Shown: piece by piece, positions 4,482-12,318 of the stretch
Numbering within the stretch: the first letter of the stretch is position 1
Layout: each line of letters opens with the position of its first letter
DNA from: an uncultured Succiniclasticum sp.
GTDB lineage: Bacteria > Bacillota > Negativicutes > Acidaminococcales > Acidaminococcaceae
DNA length: 33,220 bases
Direction: 5' to 3'
NCBI GenBank assembly: GCA_905235335.1
Contig: CAJOKZ010000008.1
Location: forward strand, 1-33,220
Translations under genes and position numbers: made by a program
The notes under the pieces: generated by a model
Told to the model about the DNA's origin: nothing
Seen by the model: the letters and a program-made list of their open reading frames with translations, nothing else
Databases searched by the model: none

Positions 4482-4521
4482 GGCCCGGGCCATACATGAA
4501 TGGTCCGGGCCATGTTTTTTT
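4482..4521 (+). terminator. intrinsic terminator of map
   Basis: Stem GGCCCGGGCCAT / ATGGTCCGGGCC with a 6-base loop, followed after two bases by a T7 run. The following bases to 4769 are AT-rich and contain only the putative promoter of the racemase locus. Confidence 0.85.
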
Positions 4522-4628: not shown

Positions 4629-4769
4629 TAAAGAAAAGACAGAATAGTGTTAAAATTATATTCAATTCTGAAAAAATAAAAAAGTGGAATTTTTTATACT
4701 TGAACGCAAAAATAATAACGTTAAAATTTTATGCTTATGATTGAAAATTATGGTAAGGGGGGACGGCGT

Positions 4770-5882
4770 ATGCGGATCGACAGGATTGACATTTATAATG
4801 TGCATAATCCTTTTAACCATCCGTTTGAGACCAGCTTTACAAAATTTGTGAACCGGGACGCGCTGCTGGTGAAGGTGTATTCGGAAGGCCTGGTGGGCTG
4901 GGGCGAATGCAAAGCATTTTACGGGCCGTTTTACAATCCGGAAGACAACGGCACGGTGCAGCATGTGCTGGGGAATATAATCATCCCGCGGCTGCTGCAT
5001 ACGGAAGTAGGCGGCCCGGAAGATTTTATGGGTAAATTCAAATTCATTGTCGGAAACCGCCTGGCCAAGGCGGCGATTGAAAATGCCCTCTGGGAAATCC
5101 TTTCCCAACGCACCGGGAAATCGATCAAAACCCTGCTGGGCGGTACGCAAAATGAAATCAAGGTGGGGGTGTCCCTTGGAATCGAGAAAGACATCAGCAC
5201 CCTGTTTAAGATGATTGAAAAATATCTGGCATTGGGCTATCACCGGACTAAGATCAAGATCCACCCCGGACAGGACGTGGAGGTCATCCGGGCGATCCGT
5301 AAGGAATTCGGCGATATTACGCTGACCGTGGACGCCAATTCCGCCTATACGCTGAAGGATATCGATGTGTTCAAAGCGATGGACGAATTTGGCCTGCAGT
5401 ATATCGAGCAGCCGCTGGGAGAGGATGATATCGTAGATCATTCCATCCTGCAGAAGCAGATTGAAACGCCTATTTGCCTGGACGAAAGCATTGTGTCCTA
5501 TGAATCGGCGGCGGCGGCCATCCGGCTGGGCAGCTGCAAGGTCATCAATATCAAATCCAGCCGCTGCGGCGGTATGTGGGAGGGAAAACGGATCCACGAC
5601 CTGTGCTTGGAACATCACATCCCCGTATGGTGCGGCGGTATGACCGAGCTGGGAATCGGCCGGGCCCAGAATGTTTCTTTCGCCAGCCTGCCGGGCTTTT
5701 CGGAACTGGCCCACGATGTGGCGGCGGCCAGCCGGTATTTTGAAAAGGATATCACCCGTCCCATGGTGGATATTACGGATCGCTGCACGATCATCGTTCC
5801 TGATGAAACAAACGGTATCAAATATGAAGTGGACGAGGAAGCGATTGACGCTATGGCAGTGGCCCACCGGATCTACAAATAA
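4770..5882 (+). CDS. NSAR/OSBS-family enolase-superfamily enzyme, probable N-acylamino acid racemase (copy 1)
   Basis: Muconate-lactonizing subgroup of the enolase superfamily. The catalytic set is complete: K161 and K163 in KIKIHPG (K163 being the KxK general base), metal ligands D188 (VDAN), E213 (IEQP) and D238 (CLDES), and general base K262 (NIKSSR). The numbering is almost the same as in the Amycolatopsis NSAR/OSBS as I recall it. The arginine three residues after the second catalytic lysine, linked to NSAR activity in that enzyme, is present (R265). Expected reaction: racemisation of N-succinyl- or other N-acyl-amino acids. Menaquinone OSBS activity is less likely because no men genes are nearby. 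ATG 4770 follows AGGGGGG at 7-base spacing; ATG 4731 has no such site. Length 370 aa is usual. Confidence 0.85.
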   Translation: MRIDRIDIYNVHNPFNHPFETSFTKFVNRDALLVKVYSEGLVGWGECKAFYGPFYNPEDNGTVQHVLGNIIIPRLLHTEVGGPEDFMGKFKFIVGNRLAKAAIENALWEILSQRTGKSIKTLLGGTQNEIKVGVSLGIEKDISTLFKMIEKYLALGYHRTKIKIHPGQDVEVIRAIRKEFGDITLTVDANSAYTLKDIDVFKAMDEFGLQYIEQPLGEDDIVDHSILQKQIETPICLDESIVSYESAAAAIRLGSCKVINIKSSRCGGMWEGKRIHDLCLEHHIPVWCGGMTELGIGRAQNVSFASLPGFSELAHDVAAASRYFEKDITRPMVDITDRCTIIVPDETNGIKYEVDEEAIDAMAVAHRIYK

Positions 5883-6142
5883 GTCTTTACAGGAAATCGT
5901 CAAAACAGTTTTGCTTGGTAAGGAAAATCGGAAAACGGGGAAATTGCGAAAGAATTTTGCGAAGCTCACACTTTCGTAAAATAGACATGTTTCGGATTGT
6001 TTTACCGGGTTTTTATAAAGGGGTTGGTGAAAACTGGCGCTTGAAAAGGAAGGCAGGCAGCCGGGCTTGCGTAAAATGAACAGTCTGGAATCATCGATTG
6101 GCAAGTGAGGGTTATTGATTCATTAAAAAGGGGGAGTTATTC

Positions 6143-6850
6143 GTGGATTTAAAACAAGCTATCAACAGTCCGGGCCTATGGATCGCATCTTCGCTGATGA
6201 TCATCGTGGTCCTGACCCAGTGTGCGATTTATCTTAGGGCAGCGATCAAAGAAGCTGACAATCTGGGCATCGCTCCGGAAAGATGGAAGGCGGGCTTCCG
6301 TTCTGCCTGCCTGACGTCCATCGGGCCGTCCCTGTCTCCTGTCATTATCATGATGGCGCTGATCGCCGTACTGGGTACGCCGACCACCTGGATGCGTATG
6401 AACGACATCGGGGCGGCCCGTACCGAACTGGCCATGGTCGCCCTGTCGGCCGGCGTAGCCGGTGTGGATCCGCAGAATCCGGCAGCTTTCGGCCTGAAAG
6501 GTTTCTCCTATGCCCTGTGGGGCATGGCCCTGAATAACCTGGGCTGGATGTTCTTTACGTTAGTGCTGACGCACCGCATGAGCGACGTTGTTGCCAAACT
6601 GAATACCAAATATGATCCGGCCTGGATCAAATACCTGACAGCCGGCGCCACCATCGGTCTGTTTGCGTTCCTGCTGTCACCCCGTCTGGTTATGCCCTTT
6701 AAACAGACTAACTGGTGTGCGGCCGTTGTTTCCGCAGCCGTAATGATGGTCGTTTCCAAAGTATTTGCGAAACACCAGCGCCTGCAGGAATTAGCGCTGG
6801 GCATCGCAATGTTGGCGGGCATGTATGTGACCGTTGCCATTTTCGGTTAA
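6143..6850 (+). CDS. DUF5058-like polytopic membrane protein, putative transporter subunit A
   Basis: 235-residue hydrophobic protein with about six membrane segments (roughly 12-31, 60-78, 115-140, 165-180, 190-207 and 215-234). It starts at GTG 6143 after a GGGGGAG site. It resembles the DUF5058 family from memory, and no biochemical function is known to me. The recurrent N-terminal TSIGPSLSPVIIMMALIAVLGTP region between two hydrophobic segments could be a substrate or ion path. The next gene, 18 bases downstream, is another small polytopic protein, and the two lie between enzymes acting on N-acyl amino acids. I infer a two-subunit permease for those substrates. The 260-base gap before it contains no clear promoter or terminator. 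Confidence 0.7.
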   Translation: MDLKQAINSPGLWIASSLMIIVVLTQCAIYLRAAIKEADNLGIAPERWKAGFRSACLTSIGPSLSPVIIMMALIAVLGTPTTWMRMNDIGAARTELAMVALSAGVAGVDPQNPAAFGLKGFSYALWGMALNNLGWMFFTLVLTHRMSDVVAKLNTKYDPAWIKYLTAGATIGLFAFLLSPRLVMPFKQTNWCAAVVSAAVMMVVSKVFAKHQRLQELALGIAMLAGMYVTVAIFG

Positions 6851-6868
6851 TGGAAAGGAGTGACGATT

Positions 6869-7531
6869 ATGGGAAATCCTGAAGCTTACAGACAAAAATG
6901 TATTAAAATCGGTATTATTACGGTAACCGCAGCGATTATCGCCAACTTTGTGCCGGCCGTTTATTTCTATATTGCCTACGGGGTTATGCCTCCGTTCAGT
7001 GATCTGGTCAAGCTGTGGACCGTAGCGGCCTTTACGTTTGGCGTGTCCTGGTTCATCCAGCCCACCACCTTCTTCAGCCTTATGGGTGTCAGCGGCACCT
7101 ATATCGGCTGGGTTACCGGCAACTGCGCGGACATCCGCTGCCCGGCCATTACCATGGCGCAGAAGGTGGCAGGTTATGAACCGGGCACCCCGGAAGGCGA
7201 CGTAATGGCGACCATGGGGATCACGGCGTCCACGTTTACCTCTATCTGCATCATTACGTTCTTTGCCGTGGCAGGCGGCGAACTGATCAACCAGCTGCCC
7301 CCGTTTATCAAAGCCGGTTTCAAATATATTCTTCCGGCGGTATTCGGGGCTGTTTATACCCAGCTGTGCACCAAGCATCTGAAGGTTGGCTTCTTCACCA
7401 TCATTCTGGCGGTTGTGCTGACCTACCTGTTTAAGACGATGAAGGTTCCCAACTGGATCCTGAACATCGCCATCATCCTGGGCGGCGTCCTGATTGCACG
7501 CATTGACTTCAAGAGTAAGAAGAAGGCGTAG
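6869..7531 (+). CDS. small polytopic membrane protein, putative transporter subunit B
   Basis: 220-residue membrane protein with about six or seven hydrophobic segments, a positively charged C-terminus (KSKKKA) and a conserved-looking central FIQPTTFFSLMGVSGTYIG segment. I do not recognise a named family. GGAAAGGAG (6852-6860) lies 8 bases from ATG 6869, so this start is preferred over GTG 6860, which falls inside the binding site. It overlaps in function and spacing (18 bases) with the DUF5058-like gene, and translation is probably coupled. A terminator-like hairpin follows before the M20 gene, which may set a lower level for the downstream enzymes. Confidence 0.7.
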   Translation: MGNPEAYRQKCIKIGIITVTAAIIANFVPAVYFYIAYGVMPPFSDLVKLWTVAAFTFGVSWFIQPTTFFSLMGVSGTYIGWVTGNCADIRCPAITMAQKVAGYEPGTPEGDVMATMGITASTFTSICIITFFAVAGGELINQLPPFIKAGFKYILPAVFGAVYTQLCTKHLKVGFFTIILAVVLTYLFKTMKVPNWILNIAIILGGVLIARIDFKSKKKA

Positions 7532-7552
7532 GTAACGAACGGGTAAGTGGAC

Positions 7553-7592
7553 GGTTCCGGTATCGGTTAGCGGTATTGCCGGAACGGTTTTT
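7553..7592 (+). terminator. intra-operon terminator-like hairpin
   Basis: GTTCCGG (7554-7560) pairs with CCGGAAC (7579-7585), followed by GGTTTTT. It lies between the membrane pair and the M20 gene, so it may be a partial terminator that lowers downstream expression. Confidence 0.5.
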
Positions 7593-7702
7593 CAGAACAG
7601 GCTGGACGGCGGGATATAATCCGGCCGGCAGGAAAAGAAGCGGAACGTGTCCGCAAATATACGAAGCGAAGGATACTAAAACACAGAAAGGAGTAACATA
7701 GC

Positions 7703-8857
7703 ATGGATGTAAAAGAAAAAGCATTTGCCTGGGTCGACGCGAATAAAGACGGTATTGTCGAACTTTGGAAACAGATGGTATCGATTGATTCCGGTATCGG
7801 TGTAAAAGAAGGCGGCATGGAGATCGGCAACCTGTGCGCCGGTATTCTGGAAGAACTGGGCTTTACCATCCGCCGTTATCATTTTGAAAAATGCGGCGAT
7901 ACGATTATCGGCGAACGGGGCGACCTTTCCAAACCCTACACCCTGTTACTGGGGCACATCGACACCGTATTCTATGAAGGTGAAGTGGCCAAACGTCCCT
8001 TTACCATTAAAGACGGTAAGGCGTACGGCCCTGGCGTACTGGATATGAAAGGCGGCGACTGCATCGCCCTGTCCGCCCTGCGTGCCCTGAAGGACGCCGG
8101 CTATGATTTCCCCTGCAAGGTGATCTTTGTAGCGGACGAAGAACCGGCCCATATTTTCTCCAATAATCCGGAAGTTATCATGAAGGAAGCGAAAGGCGCC
8201 AAATATTGCTTCAATTTTGAAACCGGGTTCCCGGATCATGACATTACCGTACAGCGGAAAGGCTGCTGGCGTTTCTTTGTGGAAACCTTCGGCCGCGGCT
8301 GCCATGTAGGAAACGATCCGGAAAATGGGCGCAGCGCGATCCTGGAAATGGCCCACAAGATCATCGAGATCGAAAAACTGACGGACTTCTCCAAGAATTA
8401 CAACATTAACGTCGGCACCATCGAAGGCGGTACGGTTGCCAACGCGGCGCCGGCCCACTGCAAGGTGGAATGCGATTTCCGTTATATCAACGAAGCGGAT
8501 CTGGTTGAGATGCGTGAAAAAGTGAAGAAGATCGTCGAGACGGTGTATGTAAAAGACGTAACTACCACCATGTCGGAAAGCTGCGGCTTTGCCGCAATGG
8601 AACGGCTGCCCGGCAACATGGAACTGCTGAAAGTTGCGCAGGAAGTTGCGAAAGAAAACGGCTGGCCGGTTCCCGGTCCGAAACTGTGCGGCGGCGCTTC
8701 CGATGCGGCCTATACCTGCAAGGTCGGCGTTCCGTCCCTGTGTTCCATCGGGGTCGAAGGCCGCCGGAACCATACGGTGGAAGAATGGGCGGATGTTGAC
8801 AGCATGTTCGCGAGAACCAAATTGATCGTGGCGTTGATCCTGAAATTGACAAAATAA
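7703..8857 (+). CDS. M20-family metallohydrolase (CPG2/ArgE/DapE-like), probable N-acyl-amino acid deacylase
   Basis: Di-zinc peptidase/amidohydrolase. Metal and catalytic residues are visible: H85 and D87 in GHIDTV, the bridging D114 in GPGVLDMKGG, the E146-E147 pair in ADEEPAH, an acidic ligand near E173 and the C-terminal His in RRNHTVEEW. The lid/dimerisation domain lies between about residues 185 and 300. The enzyme would hydrolyse an N-acyl or C-terminal amide bond, typically with L-stereospecificity. With racemase homologues on both sides, an N-succinyl/N-acetyl-L-amino acid hydrolase is the natural reading; a carboxypeptidase G2-like activity cannot be excluded. AGAAAGGAG precedes ATG 7703. 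Length 384 aa is normal. Confidence 0.85.
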   Translation: MDVKEKAFAWVDANKDGIVELWKQMVSIDSGIGVKEGGMEIGNLCAGILEELGFTIRRYHFEKCGDTIIGERGDLSKPYTLLLGHIDTVFYEGEVAKRPFTIKDGKAYGPGVLDMKGGDCIALSALRALKDAGYDFPCKVIFVADEEPAHIFSNNPEVIMKEAKGAKYCFNFETGFPDHDITVQRKGCWRFFVETFGRGCHVGNDPENGRSAILEMAHKIIEIEKLTDFSKNYNINVGTIEGGTVANAAPAHCKVECDFRYINEADLVEMREKVKKIVETVYVKDVTTTMSESCGFAAMERLPGNMELLKVAQEVAKENGWPVPGPKLCGGASDAAYTCKVGVPSLCSIGVEGRRNHTVEEWADVDSMFARTKLIVALILKLTK

Positions 8858-8919
8858 TCTGCAGGCCGCATCTTTCTTACTCTGGTTTTTGCCGGTTTAC
8901 AACAGTAACAGTACAGGGC

Positions 8920-8947
8920 GGCGGCAGGAAATCGTTTCTGCCGCGCC
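8920..8947 (+). other. intercistronic hairpin before the second racemase
   Basis: GCGGCAG(G)AAA / TTTCTGCCGC with a TCG loop and one bulged G. No T-tract follows, so it is not a terminator. Such hairpins often stabilise or process operon mRNA. Confidence 0.4.
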
Positions 8948-8978
8948 GATGTTAACATTTTGAAATGAGGTAAACAGT

Positions 8979-10115
8979 ATGAAGATTAAAAAAGTTGTGC
9001 TTCGTGAACTGGAATTAAAACATAAAGTAGGGTTCCGCACGAGTTTTGGCGTAAGCACGGTAAAGAATTTTTCTATTGTGGAAGTGCATGACAGTGACGG
9101 GAATGTTGGGTACGGCGAATGCTCTCCCTTCTTCCGTCCCTGGTACAATGAGGAGACTACCGGCGGCGCCCTGATTATTCTGAAAAATTTCCTGATCCCC
9201 GAGCTGTTTACGTTCGGTGAATTTAAAACACCGGAAGAATTCTGGTTCCATACCGGCTGGATCCGCCGGAACCGCATGGCCCGTTCCGCTGTTGACTGCG
9301 CTTTATGGGAACTGTATTCCAAACAGCAGGGCCTGCCCGAATGGAAAGCGCTGGGCGGCGTGAAGACCGAAGTGGAAGCCGGCGTGTCCCTGGGCATCGA
9401 AAAAACTCCGGACGACCTGTGCCGCACTGTGGAAAAATACATGAAACAGGGGTACCATCGTGTAAAATGCAAAATCGGCCCCGGCCATGACATCCAGTAT
9501 CTGGCGGCGGTCCGGAAACAGTTCGGCGATATCATGCTGATGGCTGACGCCAACTCTGCGTATACGTTGGATGATATTCCGGTATTTAAGGAAATCGACG
9601 ACCTGCACCTGCTGATGATCGAACAGCCGCTGGCCGACAACGATATCGTGGATCACCGCCATCTGCAGGCGGCCATCAAAACCCCCATCTGTCTGGATGA
9701 AAGCATCGATTCCCTGGAAGACGCGCGCCGGGCTATCGAGTTGGGAAGCTGCCGCATCATCAATATCAAGGTGGCCCGCGTGGGAGGTCTGACGGAAGCG
9801 CGCCGGATCCAGAAATACGCAGGCGAACACGGGGTGTTCTCCTGGAGCGGCGGCATGCTGGATGCCGGTATCGCCCGTATGCACAATATCGCGGTGGCCA
9901 CGCTGCCGTACTATGTATATCCCAACGATATTCCCAACAGCGACCGGTATTATGCGGAAGACATCGTGACACCGTCCACCTTTGTGGATAAAAACGCAAA
10001 AATCCAGGTGCCGATGGAAGTGGGCACCGGCTTCAAGCCGAACATGGAAGTCATTGAAAAGGCTACCGTGAACAAATGGGAATATGACAGCGCTCCGAAA
10101 GTAGAAGAAAAATAA
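8979..10115 (+). CDS. NSAR/OSBS-family enolase-superfamily enzyme, probable N-acylamino acid racemase (copy 2)
   Basis: Second enzyme of the same subgroup as the 4770 gene, clearly paralogous but strongly diverged. The catalytic residues are intact: K163/K165 in RVKCKIGPG, D190 (ADAN), E215 (IEQP), D240 (CLDES) and K264 (NIKVAR), with the NSAR-associated Arg at R267. The loop after the barrel differs from copy 1 (SGGMLDAGIARMHN instead of CGGMTELGIGRAQN), and so does the 20s loop (TSFGVSTVKN versus TSFTKFVNRD). Both regions face substrate in this family, so the copies may handle different side chains or acyl groups. TGAGG lies 8 bases before ATG 8979. It is the last gene of the locus, with a good terminator at 10139. 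Confidence 0.85.
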   Translation: MKIKKVVLRELELKHKVGFRTSFGVSTVKNFSIVEVHDSDGNVGYGECSPFFRPWYNEETTGGALIILKNFLIPELFTFGEFKTPEEFWFHTGWIRRNRMARSAVDCALWELYSKQQGLPEWKALGGVKTEVEAGVSLGIEKTPDDLCRTVEKYMKQGYHRVKCKIGPGHDIQYLAAVRKQFGDIMLMADANSAYTLDDIPVFKEIDDLHLLMIEQPLADNDIVDHRHLQAAIKTPICLDESIDSLEDARRAIELGSCRIINIKVARVGGLTEARRIQKYAGEHGVFSWSGGMLDAGIARMHNIAVATLPYYVYPNDIPNSDRYYAEDIVTPSTFVDKNAKIQVPMEVGTGFKPNMEVIEKATVNKWEYDSAPKVEEK

Positions 10116-10138
10116 CCGGATAAGAAGAGCATGACGTA

Positions 10139-10184
10139 ACGGGCTCCCGAACCGGGCAATTCGGTTTTGGGGCCCGTTTTTATT
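10139..10184 (+). terminator. intrinsic terminator of the racemase locus
   Basis: ACGGGCTCC (10139-10147) pairs with GGGGCCCGT (10169-10177, one wobble), followed by TTTTTATTG. An inner CCGAACCGGGC...TTCGG fold sits in the loop. Confidence 0.8.
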
Positions 10185-10311: not shown

Positions 10312-10500
10312 CCGGTGGATGAAACATGCGGAAGAATGCAGGGCCAGCAGGCTTTGCATGCCGAAGGAGTAGCACTCTCAGGCGTTCTGATGAACACGAA
10401 ACTGCATGGGGACACAGCTCTGGAGATACTCATTCGATTGAGAGCCGAAGGTGCAAGGAGAAATCCCAATCTCTCAGGCAAAAGGACAGGGCCGGAAGCA
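10312..10500 (+). promoter_or_regulatory. tandem glycine riboswitch
   Basis: Two consecutive aptamer-like units. The first has GCCGAAGGAGTAG ... CACTCTCAGGC and the second has the very typical GCCGAAGGTGCAAGGAG ... AATCTCTCAGGCAAAAGGAC. The first is more degenerate. Glycine riboswitches commonly control gcv operons or Na+:alanine/glycine symporters; the next gene is such a symporter. A rho-independent terminator at 10557-10596 forms the expression platform. Confidence 0.88.
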
Positions 10501-10893: not shown

Positions 10894-12318
10894 ATGGATA
10901 TGCAACAAATTAATGCTATCGTCAATGACATTGACAGTTTTGTGTGGGGGCCTGTAATGCTGGTCCTGCTGGTAGGTACCGGCGTGTACCTGACCCTCAA
11001 GTTGAACTTCCGTACCTGGCGGAATCTTCCGTATGCGCTGAAGAGCGTACTGGGAAAAGATGCCCGTACTACCAAACGGGGCCATGGCGATGTTTCACCT
11101 TTCTCAACATTGATGACCGCGCTGGCCGCCACGATCGGTACCGGTAATATCGTAGGTGTGGCCACGGCTATGTTCGCCGGCGGTCCCGGCGCCCTGGTGT
11201 GGATGTGGATCTCCGCCTGCTTCGGCCTGACCAGTAAGTTTGCGGAATGTATGCTGGCTGTAAAATACCGTGAAGTGAATGCCAAAGGCGAAATGGCCGG
11301 TGGTCCCATGTTCACGATGAAGAACGCGCTGGAAAATAAATCCCTGGGAAAAACATTAGGTTTCCTGTTTGCTCTGTTTGCCGTGCTGGCGTCTTTCGGT
11401 ATCGGCAACCTGACACAGGCAAACTCCATCTCCTCCGCGTTGGAGCAGACGTTTGAAATTCCTATCGCGGTAACCGGTATCGGGCTGACCATCCTGTCGC
11501 TGGTTATCATTTTAGGCGGCATCCAGACGATTTCCAAGGTATCTTCTGTACTGGTTCCCTCTATGGCGGTCCTGTATGTAATCGCAGGCCTGGCCGGTAT
11601 TTTAGGTAATTTAAGCGCGATTCCCCAGGGACTGTATCAGATCTTCGTAATGGCGTTCAGTCCTGATGCGGTAAGCGGCGGCGTGCTGGGCACCATTACC
11701 GTCAGCGTAATGAATGCGGTGCGCTTCGGCGTAGCCCGCGGCTGCTTCTCCAACGAAGCCGGTATGGGTTCCGCTGCTATTACGGCGGCTGCCGCCCATA
11801 CAGACGACCCGGTCCGTCAGGGTTACATCAACATGACCGGTACGTTCTTCGATACCATCGTTGTATGCTCCATTACCGGTCTTGTCATCGCTTCCTCCGG
11901 CGTGCTGGGCACTACTGCGGCTGACGGAACCCCGCTGAAGGGCATTGCCCTGACCATTGCGGCATTTGAACGGTTTGTGGGTCCGGCTGGCGGATATATC
12001 GTCTCTATCGGTATCCTGCTGTTCGCCTATTCCACCATCCTCGGTTGGGAATACCACGGTGAAAAGGCGTTTGAATACCTGATGGGAAGCCACAAGTTCA
12101 ATATCATCTACCGCGTGCTGTTCTCCCTGACCGCCTATGTAGGCGCTACCCAGACCCTGGAACTGGTTTGGAACCTGTCCGATATCTTCAATGCGCTGAT
12201 GGCCATCCCCAACCTGATCTGCATGATCATGCTGGCCGATGTTCTGAAGTCTGAAGTGGAACGTTTCCAGCCGATCCTGGAAGCGGAAGAAGAGGCGAAG
12301 AAGGCTGTGGAAGACTGA
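10894..12318 (+). CDS. AGCS-family Na+/H+:alanine or glycine symporter
   Basis: 474-residue polytopic protein of the alanine/glycine:cation symporter family. Family signatures include the ALAATIGTGNIVGVATA segment, GGPGALVWMW, the GGPMFTM loop, and the FGVARGCFSNEAGMGSA segment with the adjacent AAAAHTDDPVRQG. About ten membrane segments are visible, and the C-terminus is acidic and cytosolic. ATG 10894 follows GAAGGAAAG; the longer frame from 10828 has no binding site there and adds non-membrane residues. The upstream tandem glycine riboswitch points to glycine (possibly alanine) as the substrate, and its terminator suggests transcription-level control by intracellular glycine. Confidence 0.92.
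   Translation: MDMQQINAIVNDIDSFVWGPVMLVLLVGTGVYLTLKLNFRTWRNLPYALKSVLGKDARTTKRGHGDVSPFSTLMTALAATIGTGNIVGVATAMFAGGPGALVWMWISACFGLTSKFAECMLAVKYREVNAKGEMAGGPMFTMKNALENKSLGKTLGFLFALFAVLASFGIGNLTQANSISSALEQTFEIPIAVTGIGLTILSLVIILGGIQTISKVSSVLVPSMAVLYVIAGLAGILGNLSAIPQGLYQIFVMAFSPDAVSGGVLGTITVSVMNAVRFGVARGCFSNEAGMGSAAITAAAAHTDDPVRQGYINMTGTFFDTIVVCSITGLVIASSGVLGTTAADGTPLKGIALTIAAFERFVGPAGGYIVSIGILLFAYSTILGWEYHGEKAFEYLMGSHKFNIIYRVLFSLTAYVGATQTLELVWNLSDIFNALMAIPNLICMIMLADVLKSEVERFQPILEAEEEAKKAVED

Follow-up and report, generated by a model that had tools for sequence, protein, structure and literature searches.

A strictly paired membrane system encoded with NSAR-type racemases and an M20 hydrolase: a candidate salvage route for N-acylated amino acids in a rumen-type Acidaminococcaceae genome

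Introduction

What cargo would be handled by a locus that combines two racemase-like enzymes of the enolase superfamily, an M20 metallo-hydrolase and two small membrane proteins? The question is raised by a 33,220-nucleotide stretch of DNA, here termed the window, from a rumen-type Acidaminococcaceae MAG (G000; 2.08 Mb, 96% complete). A search with a single protein returned three close relatives, and the closest named relatives of the genome are MAGs from the guts of goat and roe deer. The Geobacillus-type route for N-acyl amino acids consists of NSAR plus an L-specific deacylase. The locus in the window resembles this route in that an NSAR/OSBS-subfamily racemase is situated beside an M20-type hydrolase. 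It differs in the presence of two racemases, in a hydrolase that is carboxypeptidase G2-like, and in the linkage to an uncharacterised membrane pair. A preliminary description of this DNA had read the gene order as uptake of N-acyl amino acids by the membrane pair, their racemisation, and their hydrolysis to free L-amino acids.

Organization of the locus

Five genes, all on the plus strand, lie between two terminator hairpins in the order NSAR1, DUF5058, PART, M20 and NSAR2; all five genes of the preliminary description are present and had been placed correctly. The upstream hairpin (4482..4511, plus strand; -28.2 kcal/mol, z -4.95) ends the preceding methionine aminopeptidase unit. NSAR1 (4770..5882) begins with the ATG at 4770, which is accompanied by a GGGGGG ribosome-binding stretch, the longest open reading frame starting at 4731. 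It is followed by the DUF5058 gene (6143..6850), by PART (6869..7531; its mechanical open reading frame begins at 6860), by the M20 gene (7703..8857) and by NSAR2 (8979..10115). The strong hairpin at ~10138..10180 on the same strand (-30.1 kcal/mol, z -3.86), matched in stability by 0 of 200 shuffles, bears out a terminator at the end of the cluster. The further idea that a single terminator closes the whole set is weakened by wide intergenic gaps of 260, 171 and 121 nt and by another hairpin 3' of PART that resembles a terminator and carries a U run (~7549..7594, plus strand; -21.6 kcal/mol, z -2.65). Because of these gaps and this hairpin, which is absent from the three close relatives compared, a single transcript is no more than plausible.

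We also note a short hairpin, GCGGAA..TGTCCGC, at 7640-7654 before the M20 gene, which is kept in all four same-genus loci aligned. Beyond the cluster-closing terminator, a glycine riboswitch aptamer (RF00504, 65.8 bits; the single aptamer above the gathering threshold) is located at 10410-10499, 5' of an AgcS sodium:alanine symporter gene (10894-12318).

The membrane pair

The DUF5058 protein belongs to PF16481 (1e-49; 169.6 bits against a gathering score of 28.2), and PART matched no Pfam or NCBIfam family. Searches of the PDB and Pfam at weak thresholds with both membrane proteins gave chance-level matches only, and no relative of either was found among solved structures. No paper mentioning DUF5058 was found in a literature search, and no relatives of the pair in the viral contigs searched.

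In all 48 loci compared, which come from 18 Bacillota families and include the window, PART and DUF5058 are immediate neighbours on one strand; a few of these loci end at contig edges, and in one (L073) a stop codon interrupts DUF5058. Of a sample of 398 Bacillota genomes, all those with DUF5058 above the cut-off have PART as well, and in the sole clear PART-only genome PART is cut by the end of a contig, on the side expected for DUF5058. The two genes also occur together in the seven plasmid records examined, from haloarchaea, Paracoccus, Vibrio and Arthrobacter/Paenarthrobacter, with DUF5058 in two frames in Vibrio and PART fragmented in two Micrococcaceae records. The two partners proposed for the transporter are strictly paired, with no real exception. 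Judged from gene content, bacteria and archaea share an unnamed membrane system, linked to amide hydrolases, whose two proteins occur strictly as a pair. PF16481 takes in just one member of this obligate pair, PART falling outside any family.

A second DUF5058-PART pair (L019, 8409-9804 of G000:C35) is present in the same genome, its proteins being ~42% and 37% identical to those of the window; it is followed by a class III CoA-transferase and by a sensor and regulator of the LytS/LytTR type.

Both proteins are predicted to possess about six transmembrane helices. Hydropathy averaged over alignments, from which the helix boundaries were set, reveals some six hydrophobic segments for DUF5058 and, for PART, five peaks of which one is double. 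In each protein the second segment is followed by an extended region of lower hydrophobicity, and this region contains an invariant Arg/Lys position (R85 in DUF5058, R93 in PART). With these hydropathy-set boundaries the positive-inside charge bias is opposite in the two proteins, N-out in 46 of 46 DUF5058 sequences and N-in in 47 of 47 PART sequences. This suggests that the pair is an antiparallel two-subunit carrier whose subunits take opposite membrane orientations. Adjacent genes with small membrane products predicted to be oppositely oriented are also found in antiparallel heterodimers of the YdgE/YdgF type (PMC3962082), from which the present pair differs in having about six rather than four predicted helices in each protein and in showing no detectable sequence relation.

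The case for homology between the two partners is not robust and varies with the alignment used. One alignment gave an hhalign P of 0.0008, above 60 of 60 controls, and a larger alignment gave a P of 0.018, which was equalled by controls; the hhalign probability ranged from 3 to 25%. Structure models were too poor to be of use (mean pLDDT of 40 for PART and 47 for DUF5058), their alignments consisting of four nearly identical sequences. We put forward only tentatively the fuller proposal that DUF5058 and PART constitute a hitherto undescribed family of transporters for amide-linked amino acids, common to bacteria and archaea, in which an inverted repeat would be split into unequal, antiparallel six-helix halves, neither of which would work alone.

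Gene neighbourhood of the pair

Of 46 loci, 26 have a same-strand M20 gene immediately downstream of the pair, and 30 of 48 have one no more than two genes from it; none of the 263 slots at distances of three to six genes holds one. These counts were scored with a profile built from neighbours at distances of up to four genes and run identically on the control slots; the background in this genome is ~12 M20 matches in 2.08 Mb. In five further loci a different amide hydrolase (C45, M42, M24 or amidohydrolase) adjoins the pair. The M20 subfamilies vary from locus to locus, which argues against the inheritance of pair and hydrolase as one block. The association extends to M20-type amidohydrolases (TIGR01891), which adjoin the pair in one haloarchaeal and one Paracoccus locus. 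In haloarchaeal plasmids, DUF5058 and PART are followed by a gene of the M20 or "amidohydrolase" type, with genes for glycine cleavage or lipoate alongside. Such neighbours, on plasmid loci L122, L123 and L127, may point to N-acylglycines as the cargo there. An MscL mechanosensitive channel gene is located 5' of the pair in several genomes of one Bacillota family (loci L081, L082, L085 and L098).

Linkage to NSAR is rarer than linkage to M20. NSAR/OSBS-type genes above the cut-off were found in 7 of 59 genomes of the family, all seven of which carry the pair. They adjoin the pair and M20 in five Acidaminococcaceae loci from two genera, namely the window, three same-genus genomes and L035; since these genomes are related, the five are not independent events. 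L035, from the other genus, combines NSAR1 and M20 with membrane proteins ~60% identical to those of the window. In two relatives the NSAR1 orthologue is separated from the pair, and no M20 gene was seen near it either. The linkage anticipated by the preliminary description accordingly recurs with M20 in most pair loci and with NSAR plus M20 in a second genus, the NSAR part being confined to those five loci.

In nine Acidaminococcaceae loci the pair is accompanied by class III CoA-transferases instead, and seven of these also contain a LytS/LytTR-type two-component system. On account of these nine loci the substrates of the pair are probably broader than N-acyl amino acids, and the family as a whole probably calls for a wider name than "N-acyl amino acid permease". 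Judged by its neighbours, amide hydrolases and class III CoA-transferases, the family would seem to carry amide-linked carboxylates and possibly others as well. The same loci, together with the invariant Arg/Lys of both proteins, which would suit any carboxylate, lend some weight to a general small-carboxylate carrier, or an exporter, for which N-acyl amino acids would be one of several substrates or, in the window, none. We regard this as unlikely, though the most serious of the alternatives, given that amide hydrolases are by far the commonest neighbours of the pair and that the window locus holds three enzymes of a single coherent pathway.

The racemase-type enzymes

Two MR_MLE domains, PF02746 and PF13378, are matched in both NSAR1 and NSAR2, which are 45% identical to each other and belong to the NSAR/OSBS subfamily according to TIGR01928 (339 bits, 2.2e-101, and 319 bits, 2.2e-95, respectively, against a cut-off of 200.65), a model that does not separate OSBS from NSAR. 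The best solved-structure match of NSAR1 is the Amycolatopsis N-acylamino acid racemase (1sja), and that of NSAR2 is Listeria lin2664 (1wuf). The motifs KIK (160-162) or KCK (163-165), DAN, IEQPL, LDES and NIK are present. An arginine three residues past the second lysine, which we take to be a position important for NSAR activity, is retained in both enzymes. The D, E and D metal ligands and the two catalytic lysines are likewise kept, the lysine pair acting as bases (PMC8142540). The retained arginine and the lack of menD and menB above cut-off in the genome would, indirectly, favour N-acyl amino acid racemases over OSBS.

Could the imported substrates be dipeptides or short peptides, on which the racemases, as dipeptide epimerases, would act ahead of an M20 peptidase? 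M20, M24, M42 and Xaa-Pro dipeptidase-like enzymes do flank the pair elsewhere, and dipeptide epimerases do match both racemases. Their models and structures score only ~57-110 bits, compared with 319-339 bits for the NSAR/OSBS model and 288-312 bits for NSAR/OSBS structures, and we consider the peptide alternative improbable.

The M20 hydrolase

Both the catalytic (PF01546) and the dimerisation (PF07687) domains are matched in the M20 protein, which places it in the family. No NCBIfam equivalog cut-off was reached; the match to PRK06133 (3.4e-66) lies below its cut-off. The nearest solved structure is carboxypeptidase G2 (1cg2, 2.9e-44), with which the motifs GHIDTV, DMKGG, DEEP, FETG and RNHT align, the metal-binding motifs being kept. 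In the proposed route the enzyme would be specific for the L form and would hydrolyse N-acyl-L-amino acids.

In Escherichia coli, p-aminobenzoyl-glutamate is imported by AbgT and hydrolysed by AbgAB (PMC5082436). AbgT-AbgA-AbgB and the present locus share a membrane importer, putative in the window, that is genetically tied to an M20 amide hydrolase cleaving its cargo (PMC5082436). AbgT is one long protein, whereas here two short proteins give no more than chance-level matches to Pfam transporter families. On this comparison, DUF5058-PART would work with M20 as AbgT works with AbgAB. This precedent (PMC5082436) and the carboxypeptidase G2-like nature of the hydrolase might also be taken to indicate salvage of folate breakdown products, in which p-aminobenzoyl-glutamate imported by the pair is cleaved by M20 and the racemases are incidental. 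That account is a poor prospect, as it leaves unexplained both the two racemases flanking M20 and the recurrence of NSAR1 with M20 in another genus.

Menaquinone OSBS enzymes in a genome with men genes had been named beforehand as an outcome on which the pathway would fail. In the 96% complete genome neither menD (best match 64.9 bits against 244.2) nor menB (104.8 bits against 342.7) was found above its family cut-off, so that an OSBS would be without its substrate; an identity of the racemases as MenC was rejected on this ground, and a menaquinone role for both enzymes is unlikely. That the two are menaquinone o-succinylbenzoate synthases in an accidental neighbourhood is the weakest alternative by far, since their scores above the menC_lowGC_arch cut-off come from a model that does not split OSBS and NSAR, two copies lie within one cluster, and NSAR recurs with M20 at the second-genus locus.

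Proposed pathway

On balance we favour a salvage route for N-acylated amino acids that comprises two-protein import, racemisation and M20 deacylation. DUF5058 and PART would form one carrier, most likely as two adjacent six-helix subunits of opposite orientation, and this carrier would import an amide-linked carboxylate. The two NSAR-type racemases would interconvert the D and L forms of the imported substrate, and the M20 enzyme would hydrolyse the L form to a free amino acid and the acyl group. At the sequence level the route builds on gene identity, retained catalytic residues, strict pairing, strong M20 linkage and the absence of menD and menB above cut-off; transport and the direction in which it runs, the assembly of the two proteins into a complex, the acyl group and the stereospecificity of the M20 enzyme are inferred. 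The original uptake-racemisation-deacylation scheme thus gains from the pairing, from the M20 linkage and from the lack of menD and menB, and loses from the limited NSAR linkage, including the two relatives with a detached NSAR1 orthologue, and from the nine CoA-transferase loci. That neither DUF5058 nor PART has a known function also counts against it.

Significance

The analysis proposes a specific function for DUF5058 and for the family-less PART, whose pairing holds across two domains of life. If the proposal is true, the pair would be an importer for the salvage of N-acyl amino acids or peptides in gut and rumen anaerobes, and it may represent a natural case of a transporter in which two halves of opposite orientation have remained on separate genes.
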